From: Ptychodera flava
Lineage: Eukaryota; Hemichordata; Enteropneusta; Ptychoderidae
NCBI RefSeq assembly: GCF_041260155.1
Contig: NC_091930.1
Coordinates: 49,478,500-49,542,499 of the forward strand
DNA: 64,000 bases
Direction of reading: 5' to 3'
A program made the translations under genes and the position numbers. Each line of letters starts with the position of its first letter. Position 1 is the stretch's first letter. Under the pieces are notes generated by a model, which did not search any database, had not been told where the DNA came from, and worked only from the letters and a program-made list of their open reading frames with translations. Below, one piece after another: positions 24,444-47,359 of the stretch.

Positions 24444-24565
24444 CATACATACATACATACATACATACATACATACATACATACATACATACATACATAC
24501 ATACATACATACATACATACATACATACATACATACATACATACATACATACATACATACATACG
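24444..24565. repeat. (CATA)n microsatellite
   Basis: About thirty uninterrupted tetranucleotide units. Long open frames on both strands here are repeat artefacts. There are no spacers, so it is not a CRISPR array. Confidence 0.97.
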
Positions 24566-25280
24566 TAGCGACAAACAATTTAAGCCTTAGTAATTCAGAA
24601 CCTAGCAAATCCCGACATGAGGTTGTCATGGTGACTTTTGGCCGTTTCTAAAAAAACTAGGGTATACAGTTATTATCGTAAGGTCATGATCTAAATTTAA
24701 GGGCTAACGTTTTTCCCATTTGACCTATCTATTGTATAATGACCGAAATAAACAAAATGGCTTTGTTCCAATCACGTTACTAAAAAACTACTTTCGCTGT
24801 CGCTGAATTTTATAATGCCAGCCTCGTAAGTGGTATTCATCCTCCTATCCCATATCACATTTACTTTGAATCAACCACATATTGAAAGGAATGGTCCATT
24901 AATATGATTGGGGGTGTCGTCGTTTTGTGCTATTTGTGTCATATTCGGGCGCACATAATAATTGTAACTGTGTGACAGATATCCCTTGGAGGTGGTAACG
25001 AATACACGAATGAAAAGGGGTGTTCACGAGTCGTTCTTTACAGGGTTGCCTCGATCTCATACAGGTGTAGTTGTCGTGCATCAAGACCGTTATTACTTGA
25101 ACTATAATACGTAGCCCATAGAATTCGCATAGACGTTCCGTGCTTGTGACAGATCGGTGGAGCACCATTTTACGTGTCCTTCAGTTCAGTTCTCTTGAAT
25201 GAGTCAAAATGAATGCCTTAGGACGCGTCTGTTGGCTCCCTCCGTGCACCCTTGAACCGTGGCAAATGCATATTGGTCCC

Positions 25281-25985
25281 TAGCTGTGGAAACGCAGCTA
25301 TCTTTTGGCGGGGTTGCGTGCGTCTTTATGTGGGTCAAAGGTCAACCCCGCCACGGATAGCTGCGGGCCAACTGCGAGCGAAAGTGGGTCTATTACGACG
25401 ACACAACATGTATCGGAACTTTGAACGGCAAAATAAACCAAAGTGAGCGTAATTCAATAAAATGACCTATACCTGCCTGAACTCTGATTATTGCTCATTC
25501 CCTAACTCCTTTTGTGAACAAAATTTCTGGTTCGTTTACGTTATTTCGGCTGATTTTCCAAGGAGTACTCAAGATTTTCACTCCAGCAGCGAACTTTGAC
25601 TTCTATTGATATGCTAATAAGGATCTGACCGAACGAGCGACGTCTGTATTAGCATATCAATAGAAGTCAAAGTTCGCTGCTGGAGTGAAAATCTTGAGTA
25701 CTCCTTGGAAAATCAGCCGAAATTACGTAAACGAACCAGAAATTTTGTTCACAAAAGGAGTTAGGGAATAAGCAATAATCAGAGTTCAGGCAGGTATAGG
25801 TCATTTTATTGAATTACGCTCACTTTGGTTTATTTTGCCGTTCAAAGTTCCGATACATGTTGTGTCGTCGTAATAGACCCACTTTCGCTCGCAGTTGGCC
25901 CGCAGCTATCCGTGGCGGGGTTGACCTTTGACCCACATAAAGACGCACGCAACCCCGCCAACAGATAGCTGCGTTTCCACAGCTA
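25281..25985. mobile_element. 705-bp foldback transposon with 339-bp arms and 9-bp target duplication
   Basis: Left arm 25281-25619 and right arm 25647-25985 are near-identical reverse complements around a 27-nt loop. Termini are TAGCTGTGGAAACGCAGCTA and its complement. The flanks ATTGGTCCC (25272-25280) and ATTGGTCTC (25986-25994) look like a 9-bp target-site duplication with one difference, the size typical of Mutator-like elements. No protein. It ends 15 bp from the stop codon of the NHL-module gene, inside its probable 3' UTR. Confidence 0.88.
25805..25834 (-). promoter_or_regulatory. Candidate poly(A) signals for the NHL-module gene, inside the foldback
   Basis: On the minus strand, AATAAA occurs at 25829-25834 and 25805-25810, about 180-205 nt after the stop codon. 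No nearer AATAAA was noticed, so the transposon may supply the 3' end of the transcript. This is inference. Confidence 0.35.
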
Positions 25986-26009
25986 ATTGGTCTCAGACTG
26001 CGTCTCACT

Positions 26010-26833
26010 TCACAAGTTCAGGATGCTAACCCGGTGCTTTTGGTGCTCTGTAACTGCGATAACGAACGGACTGATAACTGCCACGTCAATCGGTCCTTTG
26101 AGCTGCCCTTGACCTATCGTGTACAGAAACTTTCCCTCGCCTGTGTACTTGGCGATCCGGTCGTTCCAGAAGTCGCAGATATAGACATTGTCCTCCTGAT
26201 CGACGTCGATTCCGTAAGGCGTGACGACAGAACTGGCAGTGCTGAACGATGATTGCAGTCGCCCGTTGCAATCGTAGGTCTGTATGACTGGACGCCCGTT
26301 TCCTGGAACGATGACGTGCCCCTTGCTGTTGACGGTGAGGGCGCATGGATACTGCGTCTGACCCTCGGCGGCGCTGTAGGTCGCAAATTCTCCAAGGTGG
26401 CGACCGTCGAGGGTGTACTTACGAATGCACGACCTACCCTCTTGGACATCGGTGACAAGCACTTGGCCTTGTGGAGTGACAGTGATTCCACGCGGCACAA
26501 TCCCTTCCTTCGGGCCGAATATCCTTAATACTTGGTCGTACTCATTGCAGACGACGATTTGATTATTGCTGATGTCTGTAACGAAGAACTTGCCGTCGTC
26601 GCTGTAAGCGATCCCGAAAGGCATGAAGGGTCGAAGAAACTTCTTGAACTCTGACGTCACCTTGCACAGCCCGCGACGGTCGAGCACCTGCAGCCGATGG
26701 TTATCCTTGTCGGAGATGACCATCTTCCCATGTTTGTTGATGATGATCCCACAGGGATGGTTAAACATGCCAGGCTTAGTACCTCTTGATCCAAAAGCAA
26801 GAGGTGTTCGTGCAATGACTGAGTGATTAACTG
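26010..26833 (-). CDS. NHL-module gene exon 15: six-blade NHL beta-propeller
   Basis: Acceptor CTTTACTTTTCAACAG, phase 1, 273 codons then TGA. Six NHL-type blades: [87 protein letters not shown] and [20 protein letters not shown]. The pattern G-h-x-h-x(4)-G-x-h-x-V-x-D-x3-N-x-h is that of TRIM2/3/32/71-type propellers, which bind RNA or proteins. GC is clearly higher than in the surrounding introns. Confidence 0.9.
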
Positions 26834-29800
26834 CTGTTGAAAAGTAAAGAAACACAGTCACTAATTATTTTAACAACACACAGTAACGGTACCCATCTGT
26901 ATTTCTCAGAGTTTTCGTTGCATATGTGTCTATCTCAGTACTAACTGTACGTATGTACGTATGTATGTATGTATGTATGTATGTATGTATGTATGTATGT
27001 ATGTATGTATGTATGTATGTATGTATGTATGTATGTATGTATGTATGTATGTATGTATGTATGTATGTATGTATGTATGTATGTATGTATGTATGTATGT
27101 ATGTATGTATGCAAGTATGTAATATTATGTATGCCTATATTTAATGTCTGTCTGTCTCTTTTTGTGCTTACGTTAATTCAGAATGAATGCTAAAATTAGC
27201 ATACCATGCCATTTGTATGCTCATTTCAAATGCGATGTGTTAATAAGGGAATTCTCTCGTAACTACCTTGAATCTCTGGTAACAGTTTAACGCATCTCTG
27301 TCGCTGTTTCGCTGAAACCATCAAAGACATGGCGTCTAAGAACCATTTCCATTTGTCTTGATAGGTCTTCGTCTCTGGTACGGGTGTGTTCAGGCCTTTC
27401 TTGAGAAATTTTACACTCGTATGATCATAGGGCTTGGCGTTGGAGAAACTGCTACAATCTACGTTAAACACGAAATTGGATTGATTACTTATGTCCGTTT
27501 TATAGTGGTGATATTTATTAACCGCTCTGACTCGATAAGCACCGACCAATCAGAGAGCCCTTTTAAATAAAAAATCGTAAACCCAGAGAATAGGCCCACC
27601 TATGAACTTGTGATTTCTTTCCCCTTGTATTGCAAAACAAAAGAAAAACAAACGGACCCCTTCGCTGTTTTGTTGCAACATTTGGTCTTGATAGGGTTTT
27701 GTCATCCGGGGAACTTGTCCAATCGTAGAGTGTGTAGTGAGCGATTTGTGTTAAAAGTCATTATGATACACTATTCATAAATAACTACCTCTATTCGTAC
27801 ACGACTACTACCGGTACAGATACTAGAATCGTGTAATATTGCAATAAGCTTACTTAGCAAAATTTTACTGACCTACAATTTTAACAGCAGTAGACGAGTA
27901 GTTTTCATAATCCAAGGCAGTCATCATCGTGTTCCACTTGTCAAGGACCTTCGACCACGCTTGATGATTTGTCCTCGGTATGAGAAGAGTGTTGTCGATA
28001 GCCGAGTCAGCGTCCATGGCATGGATGCGGTTGTCATCGCCTCTAAAGCGACCAAGAATTTCTGTAGGAAAAAGAAAAATCCGTGACAGGAATGATCATT
28101 GGGGATTGGGTGATTGAAGTACTGTGTACCCGTGCATCGCAGTGACTCAAGCCACAAACGGCATACGATTCTTGTGGATGGATTCCATTCTCATAATTGT
28201 ATGAATCATCATCACTTGCATCATGATGGTAAGTTTGGAGACAAAGTGTTTCAAATCAATAGGACATGAATGAGGGAGCCATTGGGCTATGAGCCAGGGA
28301 TCGAGTATTTATTTAGAGGCCCACAAAAAGCGGACCGGTTCGTATCTAAAAATTCGTGTCGACTAAATTTCACTCATATCGCTTGAAATAGAAATATTGT
28401 TAACCGTAACTTTTGTATTGAAAATCAAAAATGACCCAACAACCGTTGCTAAAAATAAGCACGATAATGCATGCAAGAGTTAAAAGAAGAATATCATTTC
28501 ACCCGGCGGCCAATGATTATAGAATGATTCGGGATGTACTCATTTTACAGACCAAGACCATATTGCTCAAGATTGCATGATGTATTTGTAATTGATGATA
28601 TTTAGTAATTAGAGGCCCGCCTCTGATCCAGCAACACCCTTCGTAACTTAGCAGTGCTGATAAAAACGCAAAAGTTAATTCAGTGACTGTTTCAAGGCTC
28701 TGGAAGAAGGATGTATCTAATATCAGGACCTAATCTCGCAATATTCTACGCTTTGTGTATGCGATTGATTTAAACTCCCATGTCATGTGACGGAATTTCA
28801 GATGCCATGAAATACTCGTGAAGAGAACCTAGTGTTACGAAGATGTCTGAATTTCCTCATGGATTCATTATATTAAGAAACAGATTGCGATTACTTCATT
28901 CCGTGATTGGTTTGCGGTATACATGTCTAGTTGTCTTAACAATGGAGGTGATCTGCACTTCTTAATTGAATTTAAAAAATAAGAAACTCACCATTCTTTA
29001 CTTCGCCAGGTGACCTGATACTACTCTTCGGTTTCTCGTCTCCTAACTTCATGGCTTTCAAGATCCATCGTCTAAGTTCTCTGTCCCACACTTGGTACAG
29101 ATTCATGGGTATTAGTGTGATCACTGGGCCACTGCCTTCACTGTGTTCCGTATATGAGTCAAACTCTGCATCGCTCAGGTAGGTGTCTCTGATCGCACTT
29201 TTGAAGTTTTTCTCTAGTCCTGTTGACAATCGCAGACAATTGTTAAGTTATTTATACAGAAATCGCGCCGTGTCATTCATTATATGATACGGTGTTGTGC
29301 AGGAAGGATGCCGTACATATACATGGCACATGGTTATGCGAATATCCATTAACGGTAGACGAATCTGATTTATCGAAGTACTATCGCCCAGGCATTAAAA
29401 ATGCCTACGTTGCACCATGTGGCTTCTATCGATTAACGTCGCCAAAAGATATTTCAAATTTCAAAGTTTTGGTCATCAAATTTCAAGCAGTGTGCAAAAG
29501 ATCTCACCTTGGATGTTAGGAATGGTGGCAGCTAGCTTGGATTGACCAACTACCGTGACCATGGCGTTCCAGGTATCTCTCAGCTTGACCCAATGCTGGT
29601 ACACCTTTTCAACGTCAGTGACAGCCTTGCTCGACCCACCGCCCCCCTGCTTTCCGTACACGTGATCCTTGAATTCTGAATTTAAGATAAGGAGACCGTT
29701 AGACGTCATTGCGTAGTGTATGAGTCACTGTGTACTCACTTTTGAATACAAGTGCAAGCGCAAGTATTCGTCATATTAGGTAAGTACTGCTATGTAAATT

Positions 29801-32800
29801 ATTAATGACAGCGCCCTCTTTGCTCTACCCTATCATCAGTGTTACGGATGTTAACTTTGACACACTGGACGGCTGGCAAATTTCATCATTTTTTACATGA
29901 CTCAGTTAGATTGATGCATCTGAATGTCAACATTTTTCACTGTCACCGTGCCGAGTTTTTGACAAACTTTATCGTACATTTGTACCCAAATGTAAAGCGG
30001 TGGTGGAAAAATCGACTAAAAGTATTTCCCTTTTGTCCATCATTGCTGGTATAGTGACCGCCACTACCCTCACCGTTTCTATCGATGTAAATCCGCACTA
30101 TTGTTTTGCCAGTAGTAATTAATAGGGTAACTTCTTTTTCCTAAAGCCTGTTAAAATTGCAACATATAATAGCTTGTAGTGCGTGTTAAATCGACCACTT
30201 CTCACTCATGAACAAGTTTCGTTTATTGCCTATAGTCTGCCGTTCCGTGTACTTTAAATCGCCGACTGTTTTCTTCCACTGATTACTACTCAGTGATCGA
30301 AAAACTAACCTTACTTGACCGTTTGGTACTAACATCTCCCTTACCTTGCACCTGTTTTAAACTTGTCTTGTAATCTTCGTATCCGAGGGCCATTAACATC
30401 TCATGACCAGTTTCAAGTATGCTAGGCCATTGACCGTGAGCATGGCTGCCGAATAAAGAGAAGGGAATTTTTCATCCTCTAAGTGACTGCTAATATGAAT
30501 ATTGCAAGATGAAAAATCTATATCTATGAGGGCGCACTTGTTAATTTTACAATGAGGTTCAATGCATTGACTCCGTTTAATATATTAAAGGCAAGCTTGA
30601 AAATACCACAGTACGGATGACGTATGCATGAATACGTCAATCACATTAACCCTTTGAACCCGGCACTGAAAAAAATGTCCGCTTGATGTCATAGGTCACA
30701 AGGCAGGGCTCGAAATTAGCGGTAGTCCCGCGTCCACAGACTACCAACTTTTCCCCGGGGCTACCAAAACCCATGAAATGGTAGCCCACATGGACTACCA
30801 AAGCCTGGGACATGAAATTACTTAGTTCGACATGATGTTGATCGCTTTTCGATGACCGACGCTCAAACAGTCAACCTAGCTGGACACAGAAAGGCCAGAC
30901 TATGGCTTTGTCATGCAAATTGAAAGGTGACAGTGCAGTCGAATTTGCTGCGACAAACTTTCATCGAAATATCATTACCTGAACTGATGTACTTGGATGA
31001 CAGGCTTGGGAAATGATGGCCAATGAAAATTCATTTTCGTAGTTATTTAATCACAATGTATCAATCGCAATTAAATACAAATTATAAATAGCGTCCCTAG
31101 TACTAAACCCAACACTCGCCTTGGCCGACTTTATCTGATACGTGTCAACATGAGTATTATGAATTATTTCCGAAAAAAAAATCTTCATTTAAACATGGGC
31201 TACCAGACCTTGTCACTGGGCTACCAACTTCAGAAAATGGTAGCCCAATGGGACTACCAGTAGAAAAGTTAATTTCGAGCCCTGCAAGGGGTCAGGGTGC
31301 AAAGGGTTAAGAAAAAGAATGAACTTCTATAGGTCAAATTGAGAACAATGAACGAAATTTAGCTGACTTGTATTTCTTATTCAATTTCTGTTATACTTAA
31401 AGCCCCAATAGTGGCAACTGTGTAATAAACCGATCTCAAAATATCTTCAGTTTCCGAGAACTTTCATTGAATAAGACCCATTAGAGACTGAAAAAGTGTG
31501 TACACTGTTATAAGTGTGGAAAGTGGCATGTAATTTCAAACGTTTCCACATTATTGTAGATTTCCCGCCATTTTCAAAAACTAATCATATGACAGAGAAA
31601 ATAAAGATTACAACAACAAAATGTTGGCCATCATGCGTGGTGCATTCAAGTAAATAGCATCATGCTTGTTTCTTTTACTACCACGATGTGTATGTGCAGG
31701 AAATACTGATTTTTACACTTTTCTGTGGGGTGCTATTTTATGAGTGCGGCCGCATCCGTTTATTATTCAACCTGTTAAAACGTCACGGTGTAGGCATGGT
31801 CCAAATCAGCGAGCAGTGATACGTCTATACACGTCCTTCAATTAGCACGTTTACACGAACCAACTTTGGTTTGAAAATAAAATCATGATAATAATTCTTA
31901 AAATTAGCAGCTATTGGGGCTTTAATGATAACCGTTTATGTGCCAATCTAACTGAATGTTATTTGAACATATTAAATTAAGCAATATAAATTGGTCTCTT
32001 CTTCATGAACTTCAATTTAACGGACGGTACATTTCTTAGGATAAACTACATAAGTCACTGATAAACACACTTTTGAGGATGACAAAATAGGAATTGGGAT
32101 TCAACGTGGAACCTACGCAAACTTACTTCAACCAGTCGGTCAATACCAGTTCAGGAATGCTGATGAAGTGATCGCTATCGTCGCTGTTTTCGATGTAAGA
32201 CATGCAAACTCGTCTCCTTCTGGCAGTAAATGCAGTTTCCGGCATCTTTAACACTGTAATGGAATAATAAACATATTGTTAAGTTACCGACCATCCTATA
32301 CACCTATCTACCTACCTACTACTACCTAACTACATACCTACCTACTACCTACATACATAAAATACATAATATATATACATACACACACACACAACACACA
32401 CATACATACATACATACATACATACATACATACATACATACATACATACATACAGACAGACAGACAGACATACAGACAGACAGACATACAGACAGACAGA
32501 CAGACAGACAGACTAACTTACTGAAACTCATGCGATGACTCTTTTATGATGAAAGTATACATACTGAAGATTGTTGCTTATAGTCTTCGAGCGAAAAAAT
32601 ACATAAAAAGATACAACACCAAAATCACTCACAGTTTAACCTTTGGATGTAAGTTGTCTTGCTACCGTATCCAAGAGTAGAAATCAGAGAGTTCCAGGCG
32701 TCTAAAGCTTTGAACCACATGTCATGCAGTGTCTTGGGCATCAAGATAATCTTCTTAAGTTTGTCTTCAACGTCTGCCTCTGATTGGTCCACACTGTGAC

Positions 32801-35800
32801 TTTGGTCTTCTTCCAAATCTGCGTAGTTCATGAAGAGGCAACATATTGAGAAATCGCCAAAATTTATTTGTTCGATAAGGTCAGGTATATAAATCTGTAG
32901 CATCGTTCTTTTAAGGGACCGTCAACTAAACGAACTCATTTTATCGGCCATAACACGTCGATTCTGGTAGTTTCATCAATAAATCATGATCTTTGTTATC
33001 ATACTAAAGCAATCTTACAAACATGTTTCTTCTCGGCTAAAACGTGCATTAATCAAACACTCGTTTCATGCAAATAAACTATTGTACGGTCAAAATGTAT
33101 GCAATATACTAGTATCATCCAGGGATATTATCTGAGGGGTGCAACAGCGCCCTCATGCTGTTGGCTTTACCTTACCTGGTAATTTAGGAAGCGTCAATCG
33201 ATACTGCCTGTAACCGAGGCACGACACCATCACGTTCCACGCGTCGAGCAATTTCCTCCATTCACTGTACGCAGCCTCTGGGACTGACATCATGACTTGG
33301 CTTGCATCGTTTGCGACCGTGTCCTCCATGGGTGTCGGCGGCTTGTTCTGCGCATGCTCGTCTACTGGGGCGTCGTTGTTCTGGAGTCGTCGCGGTGGCT
33401 TTTCATAGGAACTAAACCTTTTAGCTAATAATAGAAAGGCGGAAGTTGAGTGAGTGTTGATAGCGCAGCGTAGTTTTGAAATGTGCAGATACGGAACACA
33501 GTCCGGAATAACTATAAATTTCAGAGGCACTTTACAATGATTTACCGCCAAAAATAAACTGAGTACAGTTGCTGCGATGTTAGGATACCATGGCAATGAT
33601 CACATATTTACCGACTTATTATTATTTCTTGAAACATGATACTGGCATGTTTTTTATGTCTAGAAGGCCTTTTTGTTTACATATAGATATTATTTTTCCT
33701 GTTTCGGGTGTCCTTTCCGTCTTTCCTATGGTCACTGCTTGGGTTCTGCATACTGAGTGTCCATCCGTTGCCGGTTGTCCGGTCGATTTGATTCCCACTA
33801 TAACCCATGACCTACCTTGCACCTTCGAAATCGACGCCTTGGACGAGATATTTATCTTACAGCCTTTCAGTAATTTCTCCCAGGCCACGCATATCGTCAG
33901 GGGCATTGGTATCGTGATGTCGTCTTTGAGGTCTGTCTTTGTGAGAACCACCGATTTCCTTACATCGCGGCGGTCGACTCTCGGCGTCTGCTCGTTTCCT
34001 AGGACGAGGAGGAGAAAAAAAAGTTTGCTTTGCTACGTGTTGGCAGTGTAATTCAGATAAATTCAGCATGTGTTGTTACCAACAGTTAAAATAATCCTAC
34101 AGTCCGCTCCTTAAAGGGACAGTCTCCAATCCCTGGTTTCCGAAAACCCTATCCTAGACATGCGTTTACCGAAACATGGTCTCACTATTGTCATACTCGA
34201 GCTGAAGTCGGTATATGTTTTGTCAAAGTTTAATCGATAATAGTGAATTTTAAAATGCCCTTTGGTTAAATGAAAGTGGATAATATGTTCCCTTCTATTT
34301 TGTTTTGACTAATTTTCACTCTAAAGTCATTTTCACGATCATACCCGACCTTCACACATCACCCAACATACCTGGGCAAATGCACAGGGCGGCCATATTG
34401 TTTTCAGCCTGCTGTGACGTAATAGCCAGGTCCCAGTCGTCGACTGAGTTACACCATTGCTGGTATATTGTGCTTGGCAACGGTTTGAAAGCAGAGTCCT
34501 TACACTCGTCAGTTTCGAGTGTTCCATATCCTGAAAGAAACAACGCGTAATTACATGTATATATCACTGAGATCACGTCATAAACGCCTGAAAGGTCAAA
34601 AGTTCGTACATTTCAGGTTAAAAGTAGTATACACATATTGACTGGGCATGAGCGTCACAGCATGCATTTGTTGCCCAAGGTCCTTAGAGTGCCCCAAAAC
34701 TGTTACAGGAGGCCGTGTGCCGACGGAAACAGACTGCTATCGGACGACTCTCTAGCCTAGATTGCTTTTCCCTTCGCTTGCCTCCGTACCTCCGTCTTCA
34801 CACGGTAGTGAAGACAGAGGTACGGAGGCAAGCGAAGGAAAAGCAATCTAGGCTAACGACTCTCATGCCCAAGGGGAAACAAACGTATGTTGTTGTCCGA
34901 AATATAGCCAGTCAATATGTGTTATGTAATACACCCCGTCAAATCTTCTCATAAAATATCGAGAAGTTCCTCAGCTATCATCCCTATCGTCTCAGTTGCA
35001 GACGATAGGGTCATCTCTTCACGCGTTTTACAATGTGTGCATCGTCAAACTCTCCCACTTTATAGCTATTGCAAACTGTTTACCGGTTAACAGTTTCGGA
35101 AACTGTTGACCGGTACATGTATCTTGCTCTTTGCATGTATCAGCATAAAAAATGGTGCATCAAACATGAACATAAATTAACGAATCACAATGTAGAGTTA
35201 TATAAATTGTTAACAGCAGCAATGTATTCAAGTCACCGTATTTCACATCCTTTCCTCACTGACGAACGCTTTCAGCGAGTTTGCATATTCAGACCCGATT
35301 TCTTTATGCACTTCTAATCATTTCTATCTCGTTGATACTCAGGCTGAGAACCAAGAATGTTGAAAAGTGGCACATAGGATTGTTGGATAAGTGGGTTTGT
35401 CAAAATGAAACAAAATATAGTTACGTGCAAAATTATGATCTATTGAACACATCTACATGTAAAAGCGTATATTATAAAAACATTCACACCCATTATCACC
35501 ACTTATAACAATGGGTTAGGGTCAAACCATAGCTGTGAAGGGGTTAAAATTATGTCGGAGTTTACGACCAGTTAGCCATATTGAATGGACGTAGATATAT
35601 CAATCTTATGTTTAATATGACGATAACCATCATGCCTTGCAGTAAATTTCGGCACCACGTGCCCAATCTAGACCAACTCATCACTATCTCGATGAAAACC
35701 AAACTGACGATTGAAAACCCGTCATAAATCTTAGTTTCACTTCCTACCATAATTTATTTCCATTAATTTGATACAGGCAGAGCAGTCTGTTCACGCTGAG

Positions 35801-35956
35801 ATTTTCGTTGTGTACGGCGAGCTTACTTATATATTCTGAAGTAGTATAATCTGTATATCCATTATACTGCTCATAGACTCAACTACTTACTTATATCGAC
35901 CCACACTTAACCTTTAATCAGATGAAATATTTGGTTCCTACGGGCACAGAGAGTAC

Positions 35957-36011
<55 letters not shown>

Positions 36012-37737
36012 CACATATATAATGTTTATCACGGTGCAAAGACTCGATACCTTTACTTTTCACCGTCGAAGAGTGCTGCTTCGTTTCTTCGATGGCCGTT
36101 TTGACTGATTCCAATATGGTACACCATCGTTGATAGGTCCCCTTCGGTACCATGACAACGCGCCTGGTTTCCTTGCCATTTCCCGTCCTGTAATCTGATT
36201 GGTTTATTGAAATTCTCCTAGAGGTGCTGAGAACACGCTTCCTCTCTGAAAGGTCGATATAAGCCAACATGAAACTTCGGCAGGGTTTCTGTTTACATTT
36301 GACAGTCGGGATAAAGGGGGTCGCATTACTGATTTTATGAAGAGATAAACTCAGTTCACTGTATGATTCATTCGTCTCAATGTCATTGTACTGAGACTGT
36401 ATGATGACACCTTAAACGTCCCATTTGTTTATCAATGGACCGTTCACTTAGTCCGCTAGCAGGGTTTTCATCTCGAAAACATGTATTGCGCTGTTACACT
36501 GTTCAATCATGATGAGTTAAACACCAGTCTTTAATATCTTCCCTAACATTGTGCCACTTCTTTGGTCGTTATATCATTCCCGAAAGGTCTTCTTTGAACC
36601 ATAGTTGCCAACGACTCATGGTGTATAACCCTACCGCAATGATACACTGATGTTTGCGGATTCTGTTGTGTGTTAAAATAATCCCTAAAGTTTCTAGGCT
36701 GCAGTAGCGCGCCGCCGTCGATTGCTACCCTTGGTCCTATGGTTGACGTTGTTTAATAAAACTACTTTTCAGCAAGCTAAGGGGTGTTGAAGAGCATACA
36801 AAGTTAGCTGTCTCTACAAGCATTTCGTTAACATTCAATGATGTTTTTCTATTAATAGCAGCTTCTCCATCACTATCTGGACTCAATTCTGTTCTCAATA
36901 AAACAATGCACCGTACACTTTCCGTAATACATTAAGATATTGTACGTGATACCGGAACAAGAAAAAACTTAAACATTTGTATAAATTAACATACAATAGG
37001 CATGCTTATAGATAGAATAGAAATCCCATTGCGGTTATAACTTCGAACTTGTATTGTGTCTGTTAATTTTCAATTATTTTTGATCTTTCATAAGTGATAT
37101 TTTTTACTCCCGGAAAAGCATAGAGTTCACCTTGTCAACACAGTTCACATGTGTATAACTTCCGTCATTATTGGTAAATTTTACAAATGAATTTTGATGC
37201 GGGACAGAATCCATTTCTTATATTATGCTATGAATAATTATTTCATATTGTTCAAAATGCAATGAGTCGGCAAGGCTAATAAGATACTTTGTATTTAACC
37301 ACACTATAAGGAGTAAAAGAAGAAAATGCATATTTTCTTCAGCAAATTCACGGTAATGATATCAAAATTTACAGTTATTGTGCCCTTTTTTTTGGAAATT
37401 TTAACTCGCTCACCTGACAACTTGGCGATACTGGCCAGGTATGAAGCAAACTGTTTGACCGCAGCGATGACAATCAAGGTTTCCAATATCCCCGCCCATT
37501 GCTCATGTCTGGCCCCGGGCACAGTGACGTACAGTCTGTCACGGGTTGCCTCTCTTTCGTTCACTTTCTCGTGTTTGCTGGTTTGCTTGTCGCTGTCGTC
37601 ACTTTTCGTCGTGGAGGTAGTAGATCCTTTTTTATTTCCTGCAACGGAACAAAGTGATCAAATTTTAGTAATTACTTGGCGACACTGTATGTGCAGTAAA
37701 GCTTAACCAACACAGTTTGCTCTCGATTCAGTAAATA

Positions 37738-37819
<82 letters not shown>

Positions 37820-40800
37820 GATGTTGATGATGTCGTCGTCGTTGTTGTTGTCATTATCATCATCACTCATCACTTTATCTCAGACTGACCAAAAGGCCTT
37901 TGCTACAACCAAAAATGTAATTCTTCACACTGACAAAACACCAATTCAAAAAAGAATTTCCTCTGTTGGGTCACACAGTCCCTCTGGTTGGATATAACAC
38001 GCGAAAGACACTATCTGATTGGCTATCATGATCGTCTGCAGCATGATCAGTACCAAAATAAAAAGCCTTTACTCTGACTCTGTTCAGAAATCCAAGTCTA
38101 TAGCAAGGGAACTGTCAATTTCTGTATTACACACCGTTCTGTTAATTTCAGAGGTCACGCGCATGACCTCTTCTTCGCGACGGTTGCAGTTAGCGTCGAC
38201 GTTCGAAAAAAAATGTAAGTATTCTGACATGATTTGGGGGAGTAGGCAGGTCATACAAAAACACCCTGACATTGAAAATGGTGGCTTTGGACTGGAGGAT
38301 GGAGAATCGTGGCAAGGCGGTGTCACTCATAGGTTAATTTTTTACTTCAAGCCATGTTCCAATTCTGACAACGTTATTTTGATATATTAACAGGGATAAT
38401 GACTGAAAGTTTTGATAATATTTTCACTATGGGTGTACTATTATTGGTCTCTGTAAATTCGACTATCACGTGACATGCGGAGACTGTGTTAAACTTGGTA
38501 AGCTGAACTAAAAGCATGCCGACATGATTTAGATAGTAGAGAAACAAAACTGCATATACAGCCGGGCCGAAAACATACACCTTACTAGTAAAAGCTGCGA
38601 TTATTTGAGCCTTGGTTGTTTATCTTTTATCAAACCATCAAAAGAACTTGTCAGGTCGGAAGTGGACTTGCCCATATACTACGTTATCTTACTTTAAAAC
38701 ACCCGGATGTCCATTAGTGAAAGCTGCTCGTAGTGGGTCTCGAAACTGACGCATGCGCTGTGCATATTAGAAATTATGGATGAGTAAAATTGAGAGAAAT
38801 ATGTCAGGATATACTAAAACGCATTACAGAAGTCTGTTAAACAGTTTTAAAATTAGGACTTTTAGTGAAATCGAATCAAAGCCTACAGCTGAATTATCGC
38901 TCACAGTACTCACGACGTAGAAGAACTATTTGACGATCTGCCATTATGTACATTAGAATGCTTCGTATCGAAACTAAAACCGAAAAGAATCCGCAAAAAT
39001 CGTTGCCAAACTAAAACTTGTCATGATTTTGACATAAACTGGGTTCATAAGATTTATGTCCTTTGGGATTGATGTATTGGGGAGGGGGGGGGCGGATTAC
39101 CTCCGGCAAAAAATATTCAATTCGACAAAGTGTATCACGTAACGGTGAAAAACAACTGGCTGGTATTCGACGGCTCAAAAGCACAATTCCTTAGTTTAAA
39201 TGTCAGTTTGGCGCTGTTCGTAGCAGAGCTTGAGTTCGAAAAATACTGCAAACTCTGATATGGTGTGAGTGATGACATGGCATTATTAGACTTTTACCGT
39301 GAGATTCAAATTAATAGACACATTGCAGAATGTTAACAAAACAAATCCAACCACGTTAACATTGGATTACAATGATATCACTGAAGTGATTCCTATATGG
39401 CCATTTTATTCTATTAAAAATCACAAACAGTTCACCAGTTCATATGACTTCCTGCATGGGAGGGGGTTCACAGATTTTGCAACGCACACGCATATTGCAA
39501 TAGTGTACAGATGCATGGATGAACGCGTGTATGACTGATGGCGAAGGCGAGCATTTATACAGCCAGTAATGTCACGAAGGAGTACAAACAATTTTGCGAC
39601 AAATGTCATGTACACATTAATCCATGGTCTATACTGTTGGTAAACACAGTAATGTGTCAGTCCGCCTTGATCGTTGCTTGCATGGACTGGTGCCAAATGA
39701 GGCAAAGTTGAGCACGGACTGAGGTTAAGTTGAGCGACAGGAAAAGTGACTTAAGTTTCATCGGTAGCCAGTGAGGCCGTCCGCGTTAAAAGACGTTCAC
39801 AAGTGGTGGGGGCAAGCTATTTTATTGCATCAGTGGCCCAAGTAGATGGCATCTATTTCATGACAATAGACTTTGAAAATTTTGTGTTCTATTTTATTTT
39901 ACGAACATATTAATAGGAATGAACAAACGTGTTTATGAGTGAACATAGAGGGTCTTTCGTAAAAGGAACAGGAGATCGGAGAGTTGCGGTGGGGAGAAAG
40001 GCAGAAGGGAGTTTCGGTAATGGAGAGGGGAGCGAGGAACACACGAATGGTGGTTTCTTTACATGAAGTAAAGATTCCCCCAGAGCGTGAAGTACAATTA
40101 CAGCTGTGATATAAATGATCAAGAGACTCCGTTTCAACCTTGCATAAAACACAAAGTGTGGTTGTAAATTACTGCGGGTTAAACTTGTTCAGCTGTTTGC
40201 TTGTGTACAAAATATTGTGGGGTAGTTTATGTTGGAAAACTCTAGCCTTATAATCTATTGATGTTTCCTATTCGACTGCAACAGTCAACGAATGAGCCGT
40301 TGGTGAATTTCGCATGACATGTTCACCTGATCGTGATCCCTGAGTCTCGCCTGTGATTCATTACCTACCGAAACAACATCACATGCACGCCTACTCGCTC
40401 AAACCTGGCTCTTCGACGAAATGCTTTCGGGTTATTTTTAGATCCAGATTGCCATCGCTGTGTCACGAATACTGTATGTAGGTTGACACAGTTAGCCGGT
40501 CAGGCATAGTCGTTCAGTTCAAAGGTGAAGCGACGCCGAAGGATTCTTCTTATTGCATGTTGTAAACAAAAGACTTTGAAATCGAGGAATCTAAACTCAC
40601 AATTGATTGCGGACGCATGCATCATCTTATCTCAATTATATTATTGCCTTGTAAGAGGGCAATAAAGATATTTTACGTGGCCAATAACACATGTTATGCT
40701 GGTCAATAACACATGCCGCATACTTGATAATATGACAAATTCCTGTATCATCTCTTGGTGAAAAGGGCCTTTGCCCGATAACGTGACAGTACGTTGTTGC

Positions 40801-43800
40801 TGTATATACGTGTTTTGGCTCGGTGACTTCGAGGGCGAATGGCAACGGATTGGTCTTTGGCATTCAGTTGAGAAAAAAACTGAAACGGCTAGAAACCACG
40901 GAGATCAAGAGTGATAAAAATCTTTACATTTATAATGATGAGGTATCACAGGACTTTTAACCTTTAGAGTCGTTTTTTACAACCCACCTGTAAACGCCGA
41001 GAGTCTCGGGCATCGAGCACAGCGGTTTATCGATAAAAGGAAATGCCAAACGGGGGGGCAGAACAGAGCCGCTGATATTTTCAACTTAGGTGCTATTGAG
41101 GAAGTGGAAGTTTGACTAAATTCCCGAGTGAGGTGAATGTTGTCGTATCAGCGGTACCTCCCTTGTAAGTCTTTGAGTGCATGGCAAATACAGCGTCAGT
41201 CAGTGACACTGTACGTGCAGGTAAGGCCAAAAAATTCGTTTGTTTCTTGTATATGCCCTTCCGAAATAGGATAGGTAGATAAGGAATTTTTTAAAATTGA
41301 CTTGACCGACAGAAAAGGAGATATTCAAAAAATGATATACATGTGTGTTGTAACATTGATAAGAATCTTATAAAGATAAGAAAAGCAAAGAAAAAGTTTT
41401 GGGTCAGGGGTTTTACCCCCGGGGTGGGTTGGTTACTCGAGACAAGGGCAAGGAGGTAATTTGGAGAGGGTACGCATGCATGTTATTGTCGTTCAACCTG
41501 GCCCTAACAGTCCGATGACATTGGGTGTATCGAAAAATGGCACATAACACGGAAGAGTTCGGAGTTTGTGTCGTCTGTGACACAGGCTTTTAACATCGAC
41601 AGCGAGGCTGTAACTTTGACATGGGTCGAGTGGACTTTATGTTGACAAATAAAGATTTTATGTCGACCCAAAAACGCCATGGTATTTTATCTTGTTGATT
41701 TTTGCCAGGTCGAGTGGCACACAGGAACTGTTATCATCTGCCCTGAATTTGCGTTAACCACAGGTTGTTGAGTGGGTGACACGGCCTCAGAACAACAAAA
41801 ATGCTGTTTTGTGTACTCGAAATATTTTAAGGGATGCAGACAGTTTGGGGGACACGGTGGGATGTGAGGTGTGGTGTCGGGACAGTCCACCGTATTGATC
41901 TTGTCAATCAGAGCATATTTATATATCTGATGCTATTTACATTGGCGCTTCTTTTTAATAACAAAGGCAGGCTCTTCAGAAACCGAGTGGAAGTAACGTA
42001 TTTCACACGGCACCGCTCGTTATCTGAACTAGCAGTGCATGCTCGTTCGCCGTCTACACTTCCGAGCACAGAGGTGGTGTGGCCGTAATCAGACAGGCAT
42101 GAACCACAGTCACCTGTGGTCTATTCCGCTCTGCGCCTATGCTCCCACAGACGTGTGTACATATGCCTTCTCAGGCATAATGTACGCACGTCTATGGGGC
42201 GCGTAGACGCAGAACGGAATACACCACAGGTGACTGTGGCATGAACCTGCACACAGAGCTATACCGTCAGTATACCTTACTCTGGTAATATAGTAAACTT
42301 CAAAGAAATGACGTTCAGCAAAGCATTCTATCGATGACCTCGATGTCTCGTTAAACGGAAAAGAACGCCCATCAATTATGTTATTTCCAGTATTATGCAA
42401 CGCAGGGTTTCTATTAGATCATTGCTGACGGCCAGAAGATAAAAATAGATGCCGGATACCAACGTAGAGTATGTGCGACCATTGCACAGCTCTGAAGGTC
42501 AGATTACGGTACCGAAGTCCAGACATAATAATCGCGTTGCGAAGCACGCCCCTCTAATTATCATATTTATTCCTGGTTTGGCATTTCCAAAATTGTGATA
42601 AGTGTTGTTCTGTGCTAGAGCAAGTAGCACGTCTACCAAAGTACGGTCCCTCCACAAACACCAAAACCGGTTTGTGGAGGGACTGTGACCAAAGGTACAT
42701 GTACGTTGGTATGTCTTATCAATGGCACCGGTGGTGACACTGACAGGGTGACTGTGGTAAACATGCTGGTTCCGCAAAATTTCAAAACACCATTATGTGG
42801 GATTGTTCACAAAAATCATGTAGATGACGACGTCTTGTTTCAAACAAACTTATTTCAATGTAGCACGGCCACGACTGTACATCTGAGAACATCATTTACC
42901 AGGTCTATCCTATATTAAATCATTCACGGAAAAAAATGTTGGAAAAATACCCTGCTCTTCCCAGACCGTGACCATAACATAGAGACGCCCCCTTTTCCGT
43001 AACTGTTGTAATTCGCACTGATGTATACCCCTTGTACCCTGAGAGTCTGACTGTGTCCTCCAGGCCAATGGCGAGAGCTGTTGGGTTCAAACGACGGTGA
43101 CACAACTCACAAACCGAAAATTGTAATATTTTAAAGCCAGGTTTTTACGCTTCTTCGTGATTTTAATGGGGGAAAATGATGTTGTTTTGCACATTTTTGT
43201 GTCAAATAGCTGTGTACACTTTAACTTTATTTGCAAACGTTACATTGGTTAGAATTGTTATTTCTGACAAACCTGATTTTAGGGGAAGTAAAATGTTCAT
43301 TTGTATGCCTACTCACCCTTTTTGTTGTTGTTGTTGTTGTTGGTTGATCGCTTCCTCTGTTTCTTCGCACACACCATTAAATTCATGGCTTCCAGTTCCT
43401 GGCTCAGATTTCTGTTCTCCGTGTCGGGCAGGTCCAGATGCGACAGGATGACGGCCTCCTTGATGGCATCTCGATTGCGGAAACTGACCGTCGGAGTGGA
43501 CGCGTGACCGTCGACGGACGCCGTGGCTCTCTTTTCTGTTTGACAGAGCGAGAGACAGTCAGCCATGGTAAGAAAGCCAGGACACGAATGACAGGGTTGA
43601 TGAAATCGTTACACGAGACCAAAGCGGGAGACAGAGAGACATAGGGTGATAGGTGGTGCGGAACAGTGACATAGACAGGAACGACCAGAGAACACGGAAC
43701 AGAACAGGTTGCAACTGAGAGAGAAGGGGGCGACACGGAAACAATAAATCGATCAATGAAGCGTGTATATGTAGTGTATTGTTCCTCATAAAAACACACC

Positions 43801-44856
43801 GTTGACGCGTACCAATTTGCATGGCGTACTTTGATTTGTCACCGCCAAAAAGACTTTGCACCTTTTGTTTTCGTACGTGGCGATTTTGATCCCAGCTTCG
43901 GACAAAAACCTTACTTTGATCCCCAGCATACCTTGGTTTCACAATTCATACAGCGATGAAAGATTTTGTACATATTTTCAAGTACATGACCGTCAACTTT
44001 GATCCAAGCTTAATTTTTTTAACAGTACTTTTATCCTAACTGGCCAAATCCACTCTGAAAGTTTACTCAGTTAAAATGCGAAATGGCTTGTGATCGGTGG
44101 ATTCGTTATGGTAACTGATTACATCTTTCAAAATTTTGCTTATTTCCTATATCATTTTTCCGTTTTCACAAGTCTCCCTGCGTGTTTTTTATCTTCATAC
44201 CCTGCCTGCAAGGCCTTCAAGTTCACGGCGTACGCCTTACGTCATCACGACAAATGACGTCTTTAACGACTTTGATATCATTAGTTTTAATATACCAATT
44301 AATCAGAGAATTTTTGAATGATGTCGATGTTTAATATCAAGCGCCGATGGACGACTAAAAGTTTTCGGCTTGCTTCGGGAAAAACTCGCTCTGAACTTTG
44401 ACCTCAGCGAAGCAAAGCGTCGATTTGAGCACTGATCTGCAATCGTTCGACCGTGCAGAGTGAGTGACAGTGGCTTTAATCTCTAGGCAAAAAGTCAAAA
44501 CAATCGGTCATTATTCACAGTCGAACAAAAGAGCCAGCCTGGATGAACCACTCGATCAACCTTTGACCCGTATGTATGCCTGGACGCCTAGTGAAAACCG
44601 CCGAACAATAGTTTATTGAGTATAATTGTAGATAGGCTCGCTTACAAACACCGAAACAAAACAAAATAGTATTAGTATGGAAACAGAATTATGTGTCCGG
44701 TACTTATCAGAGAACTTTTGGTCATATGAGGTGTTAAATATTTTATTTTTCAGTCGTGACCTTTGGTGACCTTTGGTTGGAACATCTGTCGGCTGCCGCT
44801 GCAAACTGAGAGTTGTGCGGTGGCATGAGATGGATGATGGTTTTATTTGGATGAGT

Positions 44857-44930
<74 letters not shown>

Positions 44931-45082
44931 ATATATATATATTACATACATAACACCACCAGCTACGAATAGAATGGTACATCTCAAGCATATGAGTGAG
45001 AGTGTAGAGCTAATAATCCTTTCACTTCAGTCTGAAGATTGCAGGATGTATGAAACTTTAGTAAAAATTTTATTACTCTGTA

Positions 45083-45166
<84 letters not shown>

Positions 45167-47359
45167 AATTACAATAGTAATGATACGTGACGGCATAAAA
45201 TAATATTGTGCATTTCCGTTAACATGCCATCAGGAAATAGGGTAGGTTAGTCAGGAACATTATACTTACTTTTGTGTGTGAATAATAAAAATAAACAACA
45301 TTTGGCAAAATTATTTGTGATTTTGGAGTATTTTAATTCGAGTAGGTCGGGATGCCGGAAAGTCATAGTTTTATTTTTGCCACACAAGCTTTCACTAAAC
45401 TTTGTTAGCACTGACAAAAGTCAAAGTATCGGGTGTCGGGGGCTCGCCTTGTGATAACCTTACGATGTCAATGCTGTCATCGGATACAGGCAAATAAATC
45501 AAACACTGCCGACATTTAGTGCATTTGCTAGCTAGACAGTATTGCCACATATTCTGTGAGGGGGTAGGTGCGTATTATCTTTGCAAATTGAATATAGTGT
45601 TGACTTACAGTGATCAATAATTGAACGTCTGGTTCTTGAAAATACTTGTTAATTGAACATTTTTGGCTATCCTGGTAATAAATTACCTTATTATAAACAA
45701 TAAAAATATGCTTCCAATAACGTGCTTAAAAATGCAGAAAATGGCATTATAACGTGCCTCCGTTTGGTTGGAAACGTTGTGACGCTCCGAAAGTGTCAGC
45801 GCGGCAAAATTTCGTCAACCGCCCGTGACTCCTATAGCGCCTGGCCGTTCACTTTCCCGCTGTAAAGAGCAAAATCTACAAAATCACCTATTTTGGGTAA
45901 AGTTGGTAAACATCGTGCTCAGCGTATATGAGTTTTCAGGGGTCTTCAAGTGTTAAAATCTTTGTTTAAATCATGCCACGCTTGACTCAACCAACTTGAA
46001 CCGATTGTGACATATGAACTTGGCAAGATATGGGTCACAGATATGAGAGAATCTTTGCGCGTTTACAATATGGTAGGTCGTATTAACTAAACCATGCACA
46101 GATGGACTGTGACGCATGTGCAGTATTTGCTGTTTGAGCAGTGTCATGGCCCAAAGGTCAAACTACAGGTCAGATAGTTTGTATAATCTAATTTGTCTTC
46201 AAATGGCAACAAAGTCATGGAAGGTATGCATTGTTTTAATTACTGGAAGCTGTCCCTGAAAACGTTAACTGCAGCTATACACATATTTTTCAGAGATGCT
46301 ATTTTTAAGGCACTACGCGCTTCGGGGCAGATATTTTGATTATTAAACTGTTAAATTCGCCGGTATGTTGTTTGTGTGAACCCATCTTGAAGTTTGAGGA
46401 GTAAAAGAAATTTTAACAGTCTCGATTTTTATATACCGATAAAACATTATTTATCCAACGTCGAAAACATGGGAAGCCATTTTGAATTTCAATTATCGGT
46501 CGATTTTCGGAAATGTGTTTCTCTATTACAAAATTTGCACTGTGACACTTGTTTTTTATTCTTTATTTTAAAAGGAGGATGGTTCATACTTTCACTTAGA
46601 AAAGTTTCAGCAAAAGTCCAATCTTTAATTTTTGGACGTGCCAACTATGTAATTACTTGCAGTTCAGAAAATGACAAAGACAAGATAATTATACGATTGG
46701 AACTAATTTGGGATAATTGGATCTTTATGTTTTTTTCAAATTTCTCAAAATTTTTAGGTGCCATATAACTGAATGTTGCGATATTACAAATTACTCATAA
46801 AAACAAGTGTGTAAAAGCAGATGAGATTACATTTGCAGATTGAATCGACATTACTTCACCATCCAATTATCCCAAATTAGTTCCAATCTTGCTTAAATGG
46901 AATAATGCCAAATGTAGGGCAGAGATTTGTGTGATCGAATTCGACATGAAGTTAATGTTTGGCGACTGACATTTCGAATACGTGGAATAGCCAAAACTTC
47001 TGGCGGCAAATATATGTGTGCAAATTCTCACAGTTGTAATGCCATGCCTGAGCGACACTTCTTGGTTTCAATAGATAACGCTGCAGTATGTGATGAGCGC
47101 CGATTATTCAAATATTTGCGAAAAAAGTAAACATTCAAAGATCGACATCTGATTTGGTTGTCTCACCTTGCTTTTTCGGTTGTTTACCACCGATATGATT
47201 TGATGACTTGACGACCACAGGCGTCTTAGTCGTTCTGGCGGTGCCCGCGGGAGATGAAGTTGGACGCTGCCGCGCCGCAGTGCCGGTCGGTCGAACATAT
47301 TTTCTGTAGGTTACCTTTGGCTGCGTGCGTTTATTCCGGTTGATGTCCACTTTTTCCAT
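26010..47359 (-). CDS. Uncharacterised 15-exon gene: twelve W-x3-L-[DE] modules plus C-terminal NHL beta-propeller
   Basis: Fifteen exons join in frame without a stop: 1145 codons plus TGA. Order: basic N-terminus (exon 1), module exons 2-14, NHL propeller (exon 15). Of thirteen internal junctions before the last exon all are phase 1 except the exon 9/10 junction (phase 2), so most module exons are symmetrical 1-1 cassettes. Core of the module: [IVLM]P-x6-W with Tyr or His three before the Trp, then x3-L-[DE]-x-W-N, followed by a hydrophobic stretch and a closing Gly split by the intron. Leu stands at W+4 in nine of eleven Trp-containing copies, Asp/Glu at +5 in nine. No signal peptide or membrane segment, so probably cytosolic or nuclear. 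No RING, B-box or coiled coil of a TRIM protein was seen. I recognise no family for the module. Further exons could be hidden in the large introns 1 and 2. Confidence 0.8.
26950..27110. repeat. (TATG)n microsatellite
   Basis: About forty units in the intron before the NHL exon. Frames encoding MYVC repeats are artefacts. Confidence 0.97.
27267..27458 (-). CDS. NHL-module gene exon 14
   Basis: Acceptor TTTCGTGTTTAACGTAG, donor ATTCAAG|GTAGTT, 192 nt, phase 1-1. Core [20 protein letters not shown], closing with LLPEIQG. Pro-Trp spacing is two longer than in most copies, and W+7 is Met. Confidence 0.72.
27873..28061 (-). CDS. NHL-module gene exon 13
   Basis: Acceptor TTTTTCCTACAG, donor ATTGTAG|GTCAGT, 189 nt, phase 1-1. 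Core [20 protein letters not shown] then ALDYENY, a near-consensus copy. The exon has no internal Met start, so it is easy to miss. Confidence 0.8.
28992..29219 (-). CDS. NHL-module gene exon 12
   Basis: Acceptor GATTGTCAACAG, donor AAGAATG|GTGAGT, 228 nt, phase 1-1. Core [20 protein letters not shown]. Has Tyr at -3, Leu at +4 and Trp at +7, but Arg instead of the acidic residue at +5. Confidence 0.75.
29508..29675 (-). CDS. NHL-module gene exon 11
   Basis: Acceptor TTATCTTAAATTCAG, donor ATCCAAG|GTGAGA, 168 nt, phase 1-1. Core [19 protein letters not shown], then TIPNIQG. Keeps W, D, W and N but lacks the Pro. A Gly-rich linker (GGGGSS) precedes it. Confidence 0.78.
30345..30445 (-). CDS. 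NHL-module gene exon 10: second half of a module
   Basis: Acceptor CTTTATTCGGCAG, phase 2, donor GTGCAAG|GTAAGG, phase 1, 101 nt. Core [20 protein letters not shown], then [12 protein letters not shown]. It has the Trp-to-Gly part without the linker and Pro part. Its phase-2 start matches the phase-2 end of exon 9. Confidence 0.72.
30650..31306. mobile_element. TTAA-flanked MITE interrupted by a second element
   Basis: Ends CCCTTTGAACCC and GGGTGCAAAGGG with TTAA on both sides (30646-30649, 31307-31310). Without the inner element (30704-31284) and one copy of its duplication it would be only about 70 bp. It lies in intron 9 of the NHL-module gene. Confidence 0.75.
30704..31284. mobile_element. 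Nested 581-bp element with CAGGGCTCGAAATTA termini
   Basis: Starts CAGGGCTCGAAATTA, ends TAATTTCGAGCCCTG. CAAGG directly flanks both sides (30699-30703, 31285-31289), a 5-bp duplication. Inside, GGTAGCCC-type and CTACCAA-type blocks recur near both ends. No coding frame. Confidence 0.75.
31401..31921. mobile_element. TTAA-flanked MITE, second in the same intron
   Basis: Termini AGCCCCAATAG and CTATTGGGGCT, flanked by TTAA at 31397-31400 and 31922-31925. No coding frame. Confidence 0.75.
32127..32253 (-). CDS. NHL-module gene exon 9: first half of a module
   Basis: Acceptor TATTCCATTACAG, phase 1; donor TTGAA|GTAAGT, phase 2; 127 nt. Ends with [10 protein letters not shown], which has the usual Pro-x6-Trp, and is then cut. 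Joined to exon 10 it reads DWL-N-HAHGQW. The two therefore form a hybrid or one-and-a-half module. Confidence 0.7.
32397..32514. repeat. (CATA)n/(CAGA)n microsatellite
   Basis: Compound tetranucleotide array in the intron between exons 8 and 9 of the NHL-module gene. Confidence 0.95.
32633..32818 (-). CDS. NHL-module gene exon 8
   Basis: Acceptor TCATGAACTACGCAG, donor AAACT|GTGAGT, 186 nt, phase 1-1. Core [20 protein letters not shown] then STLGY, a near-consensus copy. An acidic linker precedes it. This exon ends on T rather than the usual G of the closing codon. Confidence 0.78.
33176..33424 (-). CDS. NHL-module gene exon 7
   Basis: Acceptor CTATTATTAG, donor TTACCAG|GTAAGG, 249 nt, phase 1-1, the longest module exon. 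Core [20 protein letters not shown], then [17 protein letters not shown]. This is the best consensus copy and the best search query. Confidence 0.82.
33816..33998 (-). CDS. NHL-module gene exon 6
   Basis: Acceptor CTCCTCCTCGTCCTAG, donor GTGCAAG|GTAGGT, 183 nt, phase 1-1. Core [20 protein letters not shown], closing ISKVQG. A divergent copy: wider Pro-Trp spacing and Lys at +5. Confidence 0.7.
34372..34530 (-). CDS. NHL-module gene exon 5
   Basis: Acceptor CGTTGTTTCTTTCAG, donor TGCCCAG|GTATGT, 159 nt, phase 1-1. Core [20 protein letters not shown]. Keeps Tyr -3, Asp +5 and Trp +7. The shortest complete module exon. Confidence 0.76.
34753..34855. mobile_element. 103-bp hairpin MITE with perfect 9-bp target duplication
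   Basis: Arms of about 48 bp starting TAGCCTAGATTGCTTTTCC, with one mismatch and one extra C, around a six-base loop. ACGACTCTC flanks both ends (34744-34752, 34856-34864). A 9-bp duplication suggests a Mutator-like source. It lies in intron 4 of the NHL-module gene. Confidence 0.88.
35957..36010. repeat. (TA)n microsatellite
   Basis: Begins about 40 bp beyond the donor of exon 4 on the minus strand. Confidence 0.95.
36051..36245 (-). CDS. NHL-module gene exon 4
   Basis: Acceptor TATATCGACCTTTCAG, donor AGTAAAG|GTATCG, 195 nt, phase 1-1. Core [20 protein letters not shown], closing VKSKG. Trp +7 is Val. A basic, Ser/Arg-rich linker precedes it. Confidence 0.76.
37414..37638 (-). CDS. NHL-module gene exon 3
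   Basis: Acceptor TTTGTTCCGTTGCAG, donor TTGTCAG|GTGAGC, 225 nt, phase 1-1. Core [20 protein letters not shown], closing SIAKLSG. The linker is rich in S, T, K and D. Confidence 0.77.
37738..37820. repeat. (ATT)n/(GTT)n microsatellite
   Basis: Trinucleotide run about 100 bp upstream (minus strand) of exon 3 of the NHL-module gene. Confidence 0.95.
42104..42239. mobile_element. 136-bp palindromic MITE
   Basis: Starts CCACAGTCACCTGTGGTCTA and ends with the near-complement ...CAGGTGACTGTGG. The arms pair over almost the full length with several mismatches. CATGAA flanks both ends (42098-42103, 42240-42245), a probable 6-bp target duplication. Confidence 0.72.
43317..43535 (-). CDS. NHL-module gene exon 2: most divergent module, with poly-Asn tract
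   Basis: Acceptor CGCTCTGTCAAACAG, donor AAAGG|GTGAGT, 219 nt, phase 1-1. Core [20 protein letters not shown] aligns with W-x3-L-[DE]-x-W-N if Leu replaces the first Trp and Met the second. It ends in six Asn encoded by an AAC repeat, then KKG. Confidence 0.65.
43536..47166 (-). other. Large intron 1 of the NHL-module gene
   Basis: Contains two (TA)n-rich arrays (44860-44941, 45089-45165) and a perfect 26-bp inverted repeat pair near 46696-46721 and 46864-46889 (GATTGGAACTAATTTGGGAT and complement). No exon recognised. Confidence 0.5.
44860..45165. repeat. Two (TA)n-rich microsatellites
   Basis: TA runs at about 44860-44941 (with TG units) and 45089-45165. Confidence 0.93.
47167..47359 (-). 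CDS. NHL-module gene exon 1: start codon and basic N-terminus
   Basis: ATG at 47359 is the first Met after an in-frame TAA a few codons upstream; donor AAGCAAG|GTGAGA, phase 1, matching the module exons. Begins [20 protein letters not shown] and stays rich in K, R, P, T. No signal peptide. The shared phase is the main link to exon 2, so a start further upstream by another exon cannot be excluded. Confidence 0.6.

Follow-up and report, generated by a model that had tools for sequence, protein, structure and literature searches.

NHL propellers are known chiefly from TRIM ubiquitin ligases and from RNA regulators, in which they form the targeting end, and TRIM-NHL proteins usually carry a ubiquitin-ligase (RING) part. 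At a locus of the hemichordate Ptychodera flava an NHL exon appears to close a long series of small exons that encode a recurring unit, which raises the question of whether these exons belong to a single gene, what the unit is, and what a protein built in this way might do. We address this question within a window of 64 kb, by which we mean the whole stretch of DNA that was analysed; all coordinates below are positions in this window.

Gene model and NHL propeller

The gene model lies on the minus strand between 26010 and 47359 and joins 15 exons in a single frame of 3387 nt, encoding 1128 amino acids and a stop codon (Table 1). All 14 introns have GT..AG ends, and neither a stop codon nor a frameshift interrupts the joined exons. 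An earlier note on this DNA had described 15 exons in frame over 3438 nt; its exons and frame are recovered here, but not its length, which exceeds that of the present model by 51 nt. Of the 14 introns, 13 are in phase 1; the remaining one, between exons 9 and 10, is in phase 2 and falls inside module copy 8. The description of the module exons as symmetrical consequently applies to the 11 of 12 copies that are carried on phase-1 exons, but not to copy 8, which is divided over two exons. As the splice sites were picked with the reading frame in view, this tally of intron phases is not an independent test. The note had also given each copy an intron-split Gly at its end, which does not withstand splicing: the joined codon specifies Gly at four of the 14 junctions, or four of the 12 that end a module, and the split codons read, in order, E, G, D, G, G, A, D, L, N, E, G, E, D and A. 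The final exon base is G at 12 of the 14 junctions, and the apparent terminal Gly probably results from reading G/GT unspliced across the donor.

Table 1. Exons of the gene model and held-out scores of the module copies (profile built from the remaining copies; last column, shuffles reaching the score out of shuffles scored).
Exon	Position	Strand	Content	Phase in-out	Score (bits)	Shuffles
1	47167..47359	-	ATG and basic N-terminal tail; donor AAG/GTGAGA	0-1		
2	43317..43535	-	module copy 1, Trp-less	1-1	12.4	0/1450
3	37414..37638	-	module copy 2	1-1	9.5	0/1680
4	36051..36194	-	module copy 3		11.9	0/1766
5	34372..34530	-	module copy 4		17.9	0/1641
6	33816..33998	-	module copy 5, most diverged		1.5	98/1642
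7	33176..33424	-	module copy 6, canonical		34.1	0/1420
8	32633..32818	-	module copy 7, canonical		29.9	0/1731
9	32127..32253	-	linker and beginning of module copy 8	ends in 2		
10	30345..30445	-	module copy 8, Trp to end		12.8 (with exon 9)	1/1414
11	29508..29675	-	module copy 9		18.5	0/1629
12	28992..29219	-	module copy 10		7.2	1/1356
13	27873..28061	-	module copy 11, canonical		35.4	0/1596
14	27267..27458	-	module copy 12		12.9	0/1718
15	26010..26833	-	six-bladed NHL propeller and stop codon			

An A at -3 and a G at +4 give the start codon a favourable context, and an in-frame stop codon lies a short way 5' of it. Polyadenylation-like signals were scanned over 24000-26009; AATAAA occurs at 25834 and 25810, which is 176-200 nt 3' of the stop codon, and again at 24046. 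The donors of exons 4 and 14 look weak, as does the acceptor of exon 4, for which an alternative phase-1 donor is present 6 nt upstream. Introns 1 and 2 are long, at 3.6 and 5.7 kb. Exons have a G+C content of 42-54%, compared with 39% in the introns. With exon 15 used for training and excluded from the count, 12 of 14 exons have a codon score in the model frame above that of 98% of random intron segments, whilst exons 1 and 14 score above 88% and 94% of intron segments, respectively. The model frame is the best-scoring of the three in only eight of these 14 exons, so codon use indicates a coding-like composition rather than a frame, and the contrast between exons and introns may in part be plain G+C content.

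At the two ends of the product, exon 1 encodes a tail with a net charge of +13 across 65 residues, for which a Pfam scan gave no match, and exon 15 encodes an NHL domain. The latter is matched by Pfam PF01436 in four stretches (E 2.8e-20, 71.7 bits against a cut-off of 20), and its closest PDB chain is TRIM71 (2.6e-42), followed by Drosophila Thin. Landmarks of six blades follow one another at intervals of 42-49 residues, as in a six-bladed NHL propeller; the D-x-x-N corner is retained in three blades (1, 2 and 5) and degenerate in the other three (3, 4 and 6). Exon 15 has no Met before residue 23, where blade 1 starts; since residues ahead of this Met can be aligned with TRIM71, the propeller probably depends on splicing to an upstream exon. 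The acceptor of exon 15, 433 nt from exon 14, is in phase 1 and fits the donor of that exon. The gene model, the repeats and the propeller are read from the sequence, and on this evidence one protein-coding animal gene with a real repeat array is supported.

Several other elements were observed in the window. The intron between exons 9 and 10 contains, at 30699-31289, a transposon-like element of ~580 nt with terminal inverted repeats CAGGGCTCGAAATTA (16-nt arms) and a direct CAAGG on either side. Two intron hairpins, at 34746-34862 (35-nt arms with 94% complementarity, 6-nt loop) and 42104-42239 (43-nt arms with 88% complementarity, 50 nt apart), are possibly small foldback elements. On the plus strand, a long open frame at 887-3898 encodes a SAM domain (Pfam SAM_1, 3.2e-5) and a P-loop-like stretch before running into a gap of 100 N (3901-4000), and is reminiscent of SAMD9. 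A frame at 10942-11313 (+) contains a cyclic-nucleotide-binding domain (4.6e-8), and downstream of it, at 14409-14598 (+), three repeats with a spacing of 78 nt encode a YLR-[KR]-EN-T motif. A reverse transcriptase frame (RVT_1, 3.4e-37) at 59638-61656 on the minus strand probably belongs to a LINE.

The repeated module

N-terminal to the NHL exon, the array consists of twelve diverged copies of a unit of ~41 residues. When the copies are aligned on the conserved Trp (position 0, 11 of 12 copies, copy 1 in exon 2 being the one without it), Pro is found at -7 in 9/12, Tyr or His at -3 in 9/12, Leu at +4 in 10/12, Asp or Glu at +5 in 10/12 and Trp at +7 in 6/12. Where +7 is not Trp, it is Met in two copies and various residues otherwise, and columns +11, +23 and +26 are mostly aliphatic across the twelve copies. 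The counts that the earlier note gave over eleven copies (Pro -7 in 8, Tyr/His -3 in 9, Leu +4 in 9, Asp/Glu +5 in 9, Trp +7 in 6) were reproduced exactly. Summed column conservation reaches 174, against a shuffle maximum of 117; with the Trp anchor column removed it is 163, and the highest value among 2000 shuffles is 118.

Each copy in turn was then left out of the profile and scored against its own shuffles, 2000 per copy, of which only those reported by HMMER (1356-1766) have a score. Nine of the 12 copies score above all of their scored shuffles and copies 8 and 10 are equalled by one shuffle each, whereas in this test copy 5 is indistinguishable from shuffles (98 of 1642 reach its score). 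Its identity is based on the Pro at -7, the Trp at 0 and the Leu at +4, together with its place in the series. The claim of twelve module copies is thus borne out by held-out scoring for eleven, with copy 5 as a weak member. A six-frame profile search of the 64-kb window, quoted in bits because HMMER E-values are conditional there, returned the 12 copies at 37.7-60.2 bits, scores that are in-sample and in which copy 8 is represented by exon 10. No further copies were found in the window, the next score being 6.7 bits, which is within the range of shuffled windows (6.8, 14.6 and 6.9).

The pattern of hydrophobic residues suggests a helical unit. Over columns -6 to +15 hydrophobicity has its peak at 100 degrees per residue, with 0.34% of 5000 column shuffles equalling it at 90-110 degrees, and over columns +15 to +27 the peak is at 110 degrees, with 4.0% of shuffles as periodic; columns -13 to -7 have no periodicity (39% of shuffles). 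Positions -3, 0, +4, +7, +11 and +14 follow one another at intervals of 3, 4, 3, 4 and 3, which is the a/d pattern of a heptad. Nine of the 12 copies are without Pro or Gly over -4 to +13; inside the putative helix copy 8 has three such residues and copies 2 and 5 have one each. From the heptad periodicity and the scarcity of Pro and Gly we read the module as probably an amphipathic helix with aromatic core positions, followed by a short second helix. With respect to coiled coils, the putative module helix has heptad spacing, judged from sequence, but in pieces of ~20 residues.

The module has no significant match in Pfam, PDB, NCBIfam or PADLOC as searched, and the strong hit to a known domain that the earlier note named as a refutation was not found in these libraries. 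By exon, a Pfam scan identifies exon 15 as NHL, two module exons have chance-level matches (exon 11 to DUF7441 and LAMB4, exon 3 to Corazonin; E 0.046-0.23) and the other twelve have none, so that for the module exons nothing is significant at a best E of 0.046. The 12 module cores likewise gave nothing significant in Pfam, the best being two single-member matches at E 0.15 (LAMB4 and DUF3644), which we attribute to chance. A PDB search with the 12-copy profile had as its best match a designed soluble bacteriorhodopsin (E 0.25). A typed consensus reached at best E 0.15 in Pfam (PhoLip_ATPase_N, again chance) and 0.1 in PDB, with no match in NCBIfam or PADLOC. The same consensus doubled in tandem matched PhoLip_ATPase_N at 5.9e-4 and 12 weaker families, including the death-like DEATH_SH3BP4 at 0.047, but all 13 are below their gathering scores, and these matches were discounted because a duplicated query lifts any chance score. 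Beyond the library matches, resemblance of the module to death domains, SAM and TPR was judged by eye. Lineage-specific arrays of diverged helical modules are fairly common in invertebrate genomes, so the absence of the module from Pfam is not in itself very surprising.

A scan of prokaryotes with copy 6 (290 candidate stretches, two loci) led to bacterial proteins of 522 and 525 aa; these resemble each other but are unlike the module. The best scores of the module profile at the two loci are 4.7 and 4.9 bits, with no hit at E 1 in one of them, and both loci were rejected. No relative was found in a viral-contig scan with copy 11 (32 candidate stretches).

The copies of the array are, by the following comparisons, old. 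The mean pairwise identity of their cores is 17.8%, and neighbouring copies are no more similar than expected: among 5000 random orders, 1033 gave a value at least as high. When the locus was compared with itself under low-complexity masking, no duplicated DNA was detected, although a planted copy with 20% mutations was recovered; the unmasked comparison has 34 off-diagonal matches, and the 12 of these that were inspected are simple repeats. We reject recent exon duplication on the absence of duplicated DNA after masking and the lack of any excess similarity between neighbours. The proposal that copy number changes by exon duplication fits the intron phases, but not as a recent process.

Possible roles of the array

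What might such a protein do? The product would run from the basic tail through twelve modules, each a linker plus a helical hairpin, to a C-terminal six-bladed NHL propeller. Within a module, a variable charged linker would lead into a short hydrophobic stretch, usually ended by Pro, and then into an amphipathic helix of ~20 residues with Tyr/His at -3, Trp at 0, Leu at +4, Trp or another residue at +7, Val/Ile at +11 and Leu at +14 on its a/d face; the short second amphipathic helix, usually present, would span about +16 to +27. From this layout we infer helicity, self-association and an adaptor role. The array would most likely stand in for the TRIM coiled coil, with the aromatic helix faces packing within or between chains to form a scaffold that is flexible and multivalent, and with a partner bound by the propeller. 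As neither a RING nor a B-box was detected, the protein would be an adaptor without catalytic activity, RING-less like Brat. We give about an even chance to this best reading, in which an NHL adaptor without a RING uses its array to multimerise or to cluster partners.

Instead of self-packing helices, the copies could be independent partner-recruiting motifs on disordered linkers, in other words a multivalent short-motif array, of which the Trp motifs of GW182 are an example; we regard this as somewhat unlikely, if the nearest competitor. The linkers (9-41 residues) are charged, variable in length and disordered-looking, with a fraction of disorder-promoting residues of 0.69 compared with 0.53 in the cores. 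Conservation peaks around Pro-x6-Trp-x3-Leu-Asp/Glu, and a helix of ~20 residues with a short companion may be small for a free-standing fold, both of which would suit recruiting motifs. A heptad core over approximately five turns, together with a second amphipathic stretch, nevertheless exceeds what a short motif needs.

A regulator similar to Brat and LIN41, in which the propeller binds RNA and the array recruits effectors, would agree with the TRIM-NHL type of the NHL domain and with the basic N-terminal tail, and several TRIM-NHL proteins bind RNA according to the excerpts of PMC9070667 and PMC5908797 used here. This is unlikely in the present case. The excerpt of PMC5908797 places eight basic residues among the RNA contacts of LIN41/TRIM71, and the eight residue numbers land on the correct letters of the TRIM71 PDB chain; the six possible blade registers keep 1, 0, 0, 0, 0 and 2 of these 8, the register that aligns the identical D-K-D-N-H-R corner being the one that keeps two. 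As only 0-2 of the eight LIN41 contacts given there are kept, RNA binding of the LIN41 type by this propeller is unlikely, and the net charge of the whole domain is only +5.

TPR and other two-helix repeats consist of tandem units of ~40 residues, and the modules might in principle stack in this manner as a continuous alpha-solenoid. The length of the tandem units, their two-helix appearance and the constant spacing within each of them would be compatible with stacking, but the linkers between modules are long, charged and widely different in length, and neither TPR nor any other Pfam helical repeat matched any exon or core, which makes a solenoid quite improbable. It is very improbable that the hand-built model fuses two genes, or that part of the array is decaying and spliced out, as the degraded copies 1 and 5, the weak-looking donors and the long first introns might suggest, given that the 15 joined exons are free of stops and frameshifts and that the NHL exon has its first Met only at blade 1 and a phase-1 acceptor matching exon 14.

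We return to the RING-less adaptor as the preferred reading. In a bolder form, which we offer tentatively and rate somewhat below an even chance, a class of helical domain outside Pfam and PDB would have replaced the tripartite motif of an NHL protein in some animal lineage and multiplied to twelve phase-1 cassettes, giving a RING-less multimerising adaptor with an aromatic heptad core whose valency is set by the number of exons. If true, this would point to re-use of the propeller, without the ligase part, at the head of a multivalent scaffold, and the layout in exon cassettes would tie exon number to valency in a directly testable way. Should the module turn up in further animal proteins, it would merit a new entry in the domain libraries.

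Comparison with known systems

TPR-like families resemble the array in their tandem, two-helix-looking units of ~40 residues, but differ from it in that the module has no Pfam match and its linkers are long and variable. No NHL protein with such an array was encountered in the literature on TRIM-NHL proteins, exon cassettes and Trp coiled coils, among the matches listed.

The TRIM-NHL proteins (subfamily C or class VII, including TRIM71/LIN-41, TRIM2/3, Brat and Mei-P26) share the C-terminal six-bladed NHL domain with the present protein. In contrast, the place of the tripartite motif is taken here by the array of twelve modules, which has exons to itself. In Pfam scans, none of the 15 exons gave a match to RING, B-box or filamin, and regular-expression searches of the 64-kb window in six frames, which register matches within single exons and were run without a positive control, detected neither a RING nor a B-box pattern. 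Within the window, the gene product therefore appears unlike a TRIM ligase, and membership of the TRIM-NHL family fails, as far as tested, on RING and B-box. The earlier proposal of an array joined to an NHL propeller without a TRIM N-terminus agrees with the sequence. TRIM coiled coils mediate antiparallel homodimerisation, as stated in the part of PMC9732051 consulted. Compared with TRIM71/LIN-41, the propeller lacks most of the LIN41 RNA contacts listed in the excerpt of PMC5908797. Malin/NHLRC1, like the protein described here, has an NHL domain in an architecture other than that of TRIM proteins, but in the account excerpted from PMC3503706 it is short and has a RING, whereas the present protein is long and a RING was not found. 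Brat retains a truncated TRIM domain, of which none is seen here; it likewise combines an NHL domain with the lack of a RING, and according to the excerpt of PMC9070667 it is still a potent regulator.
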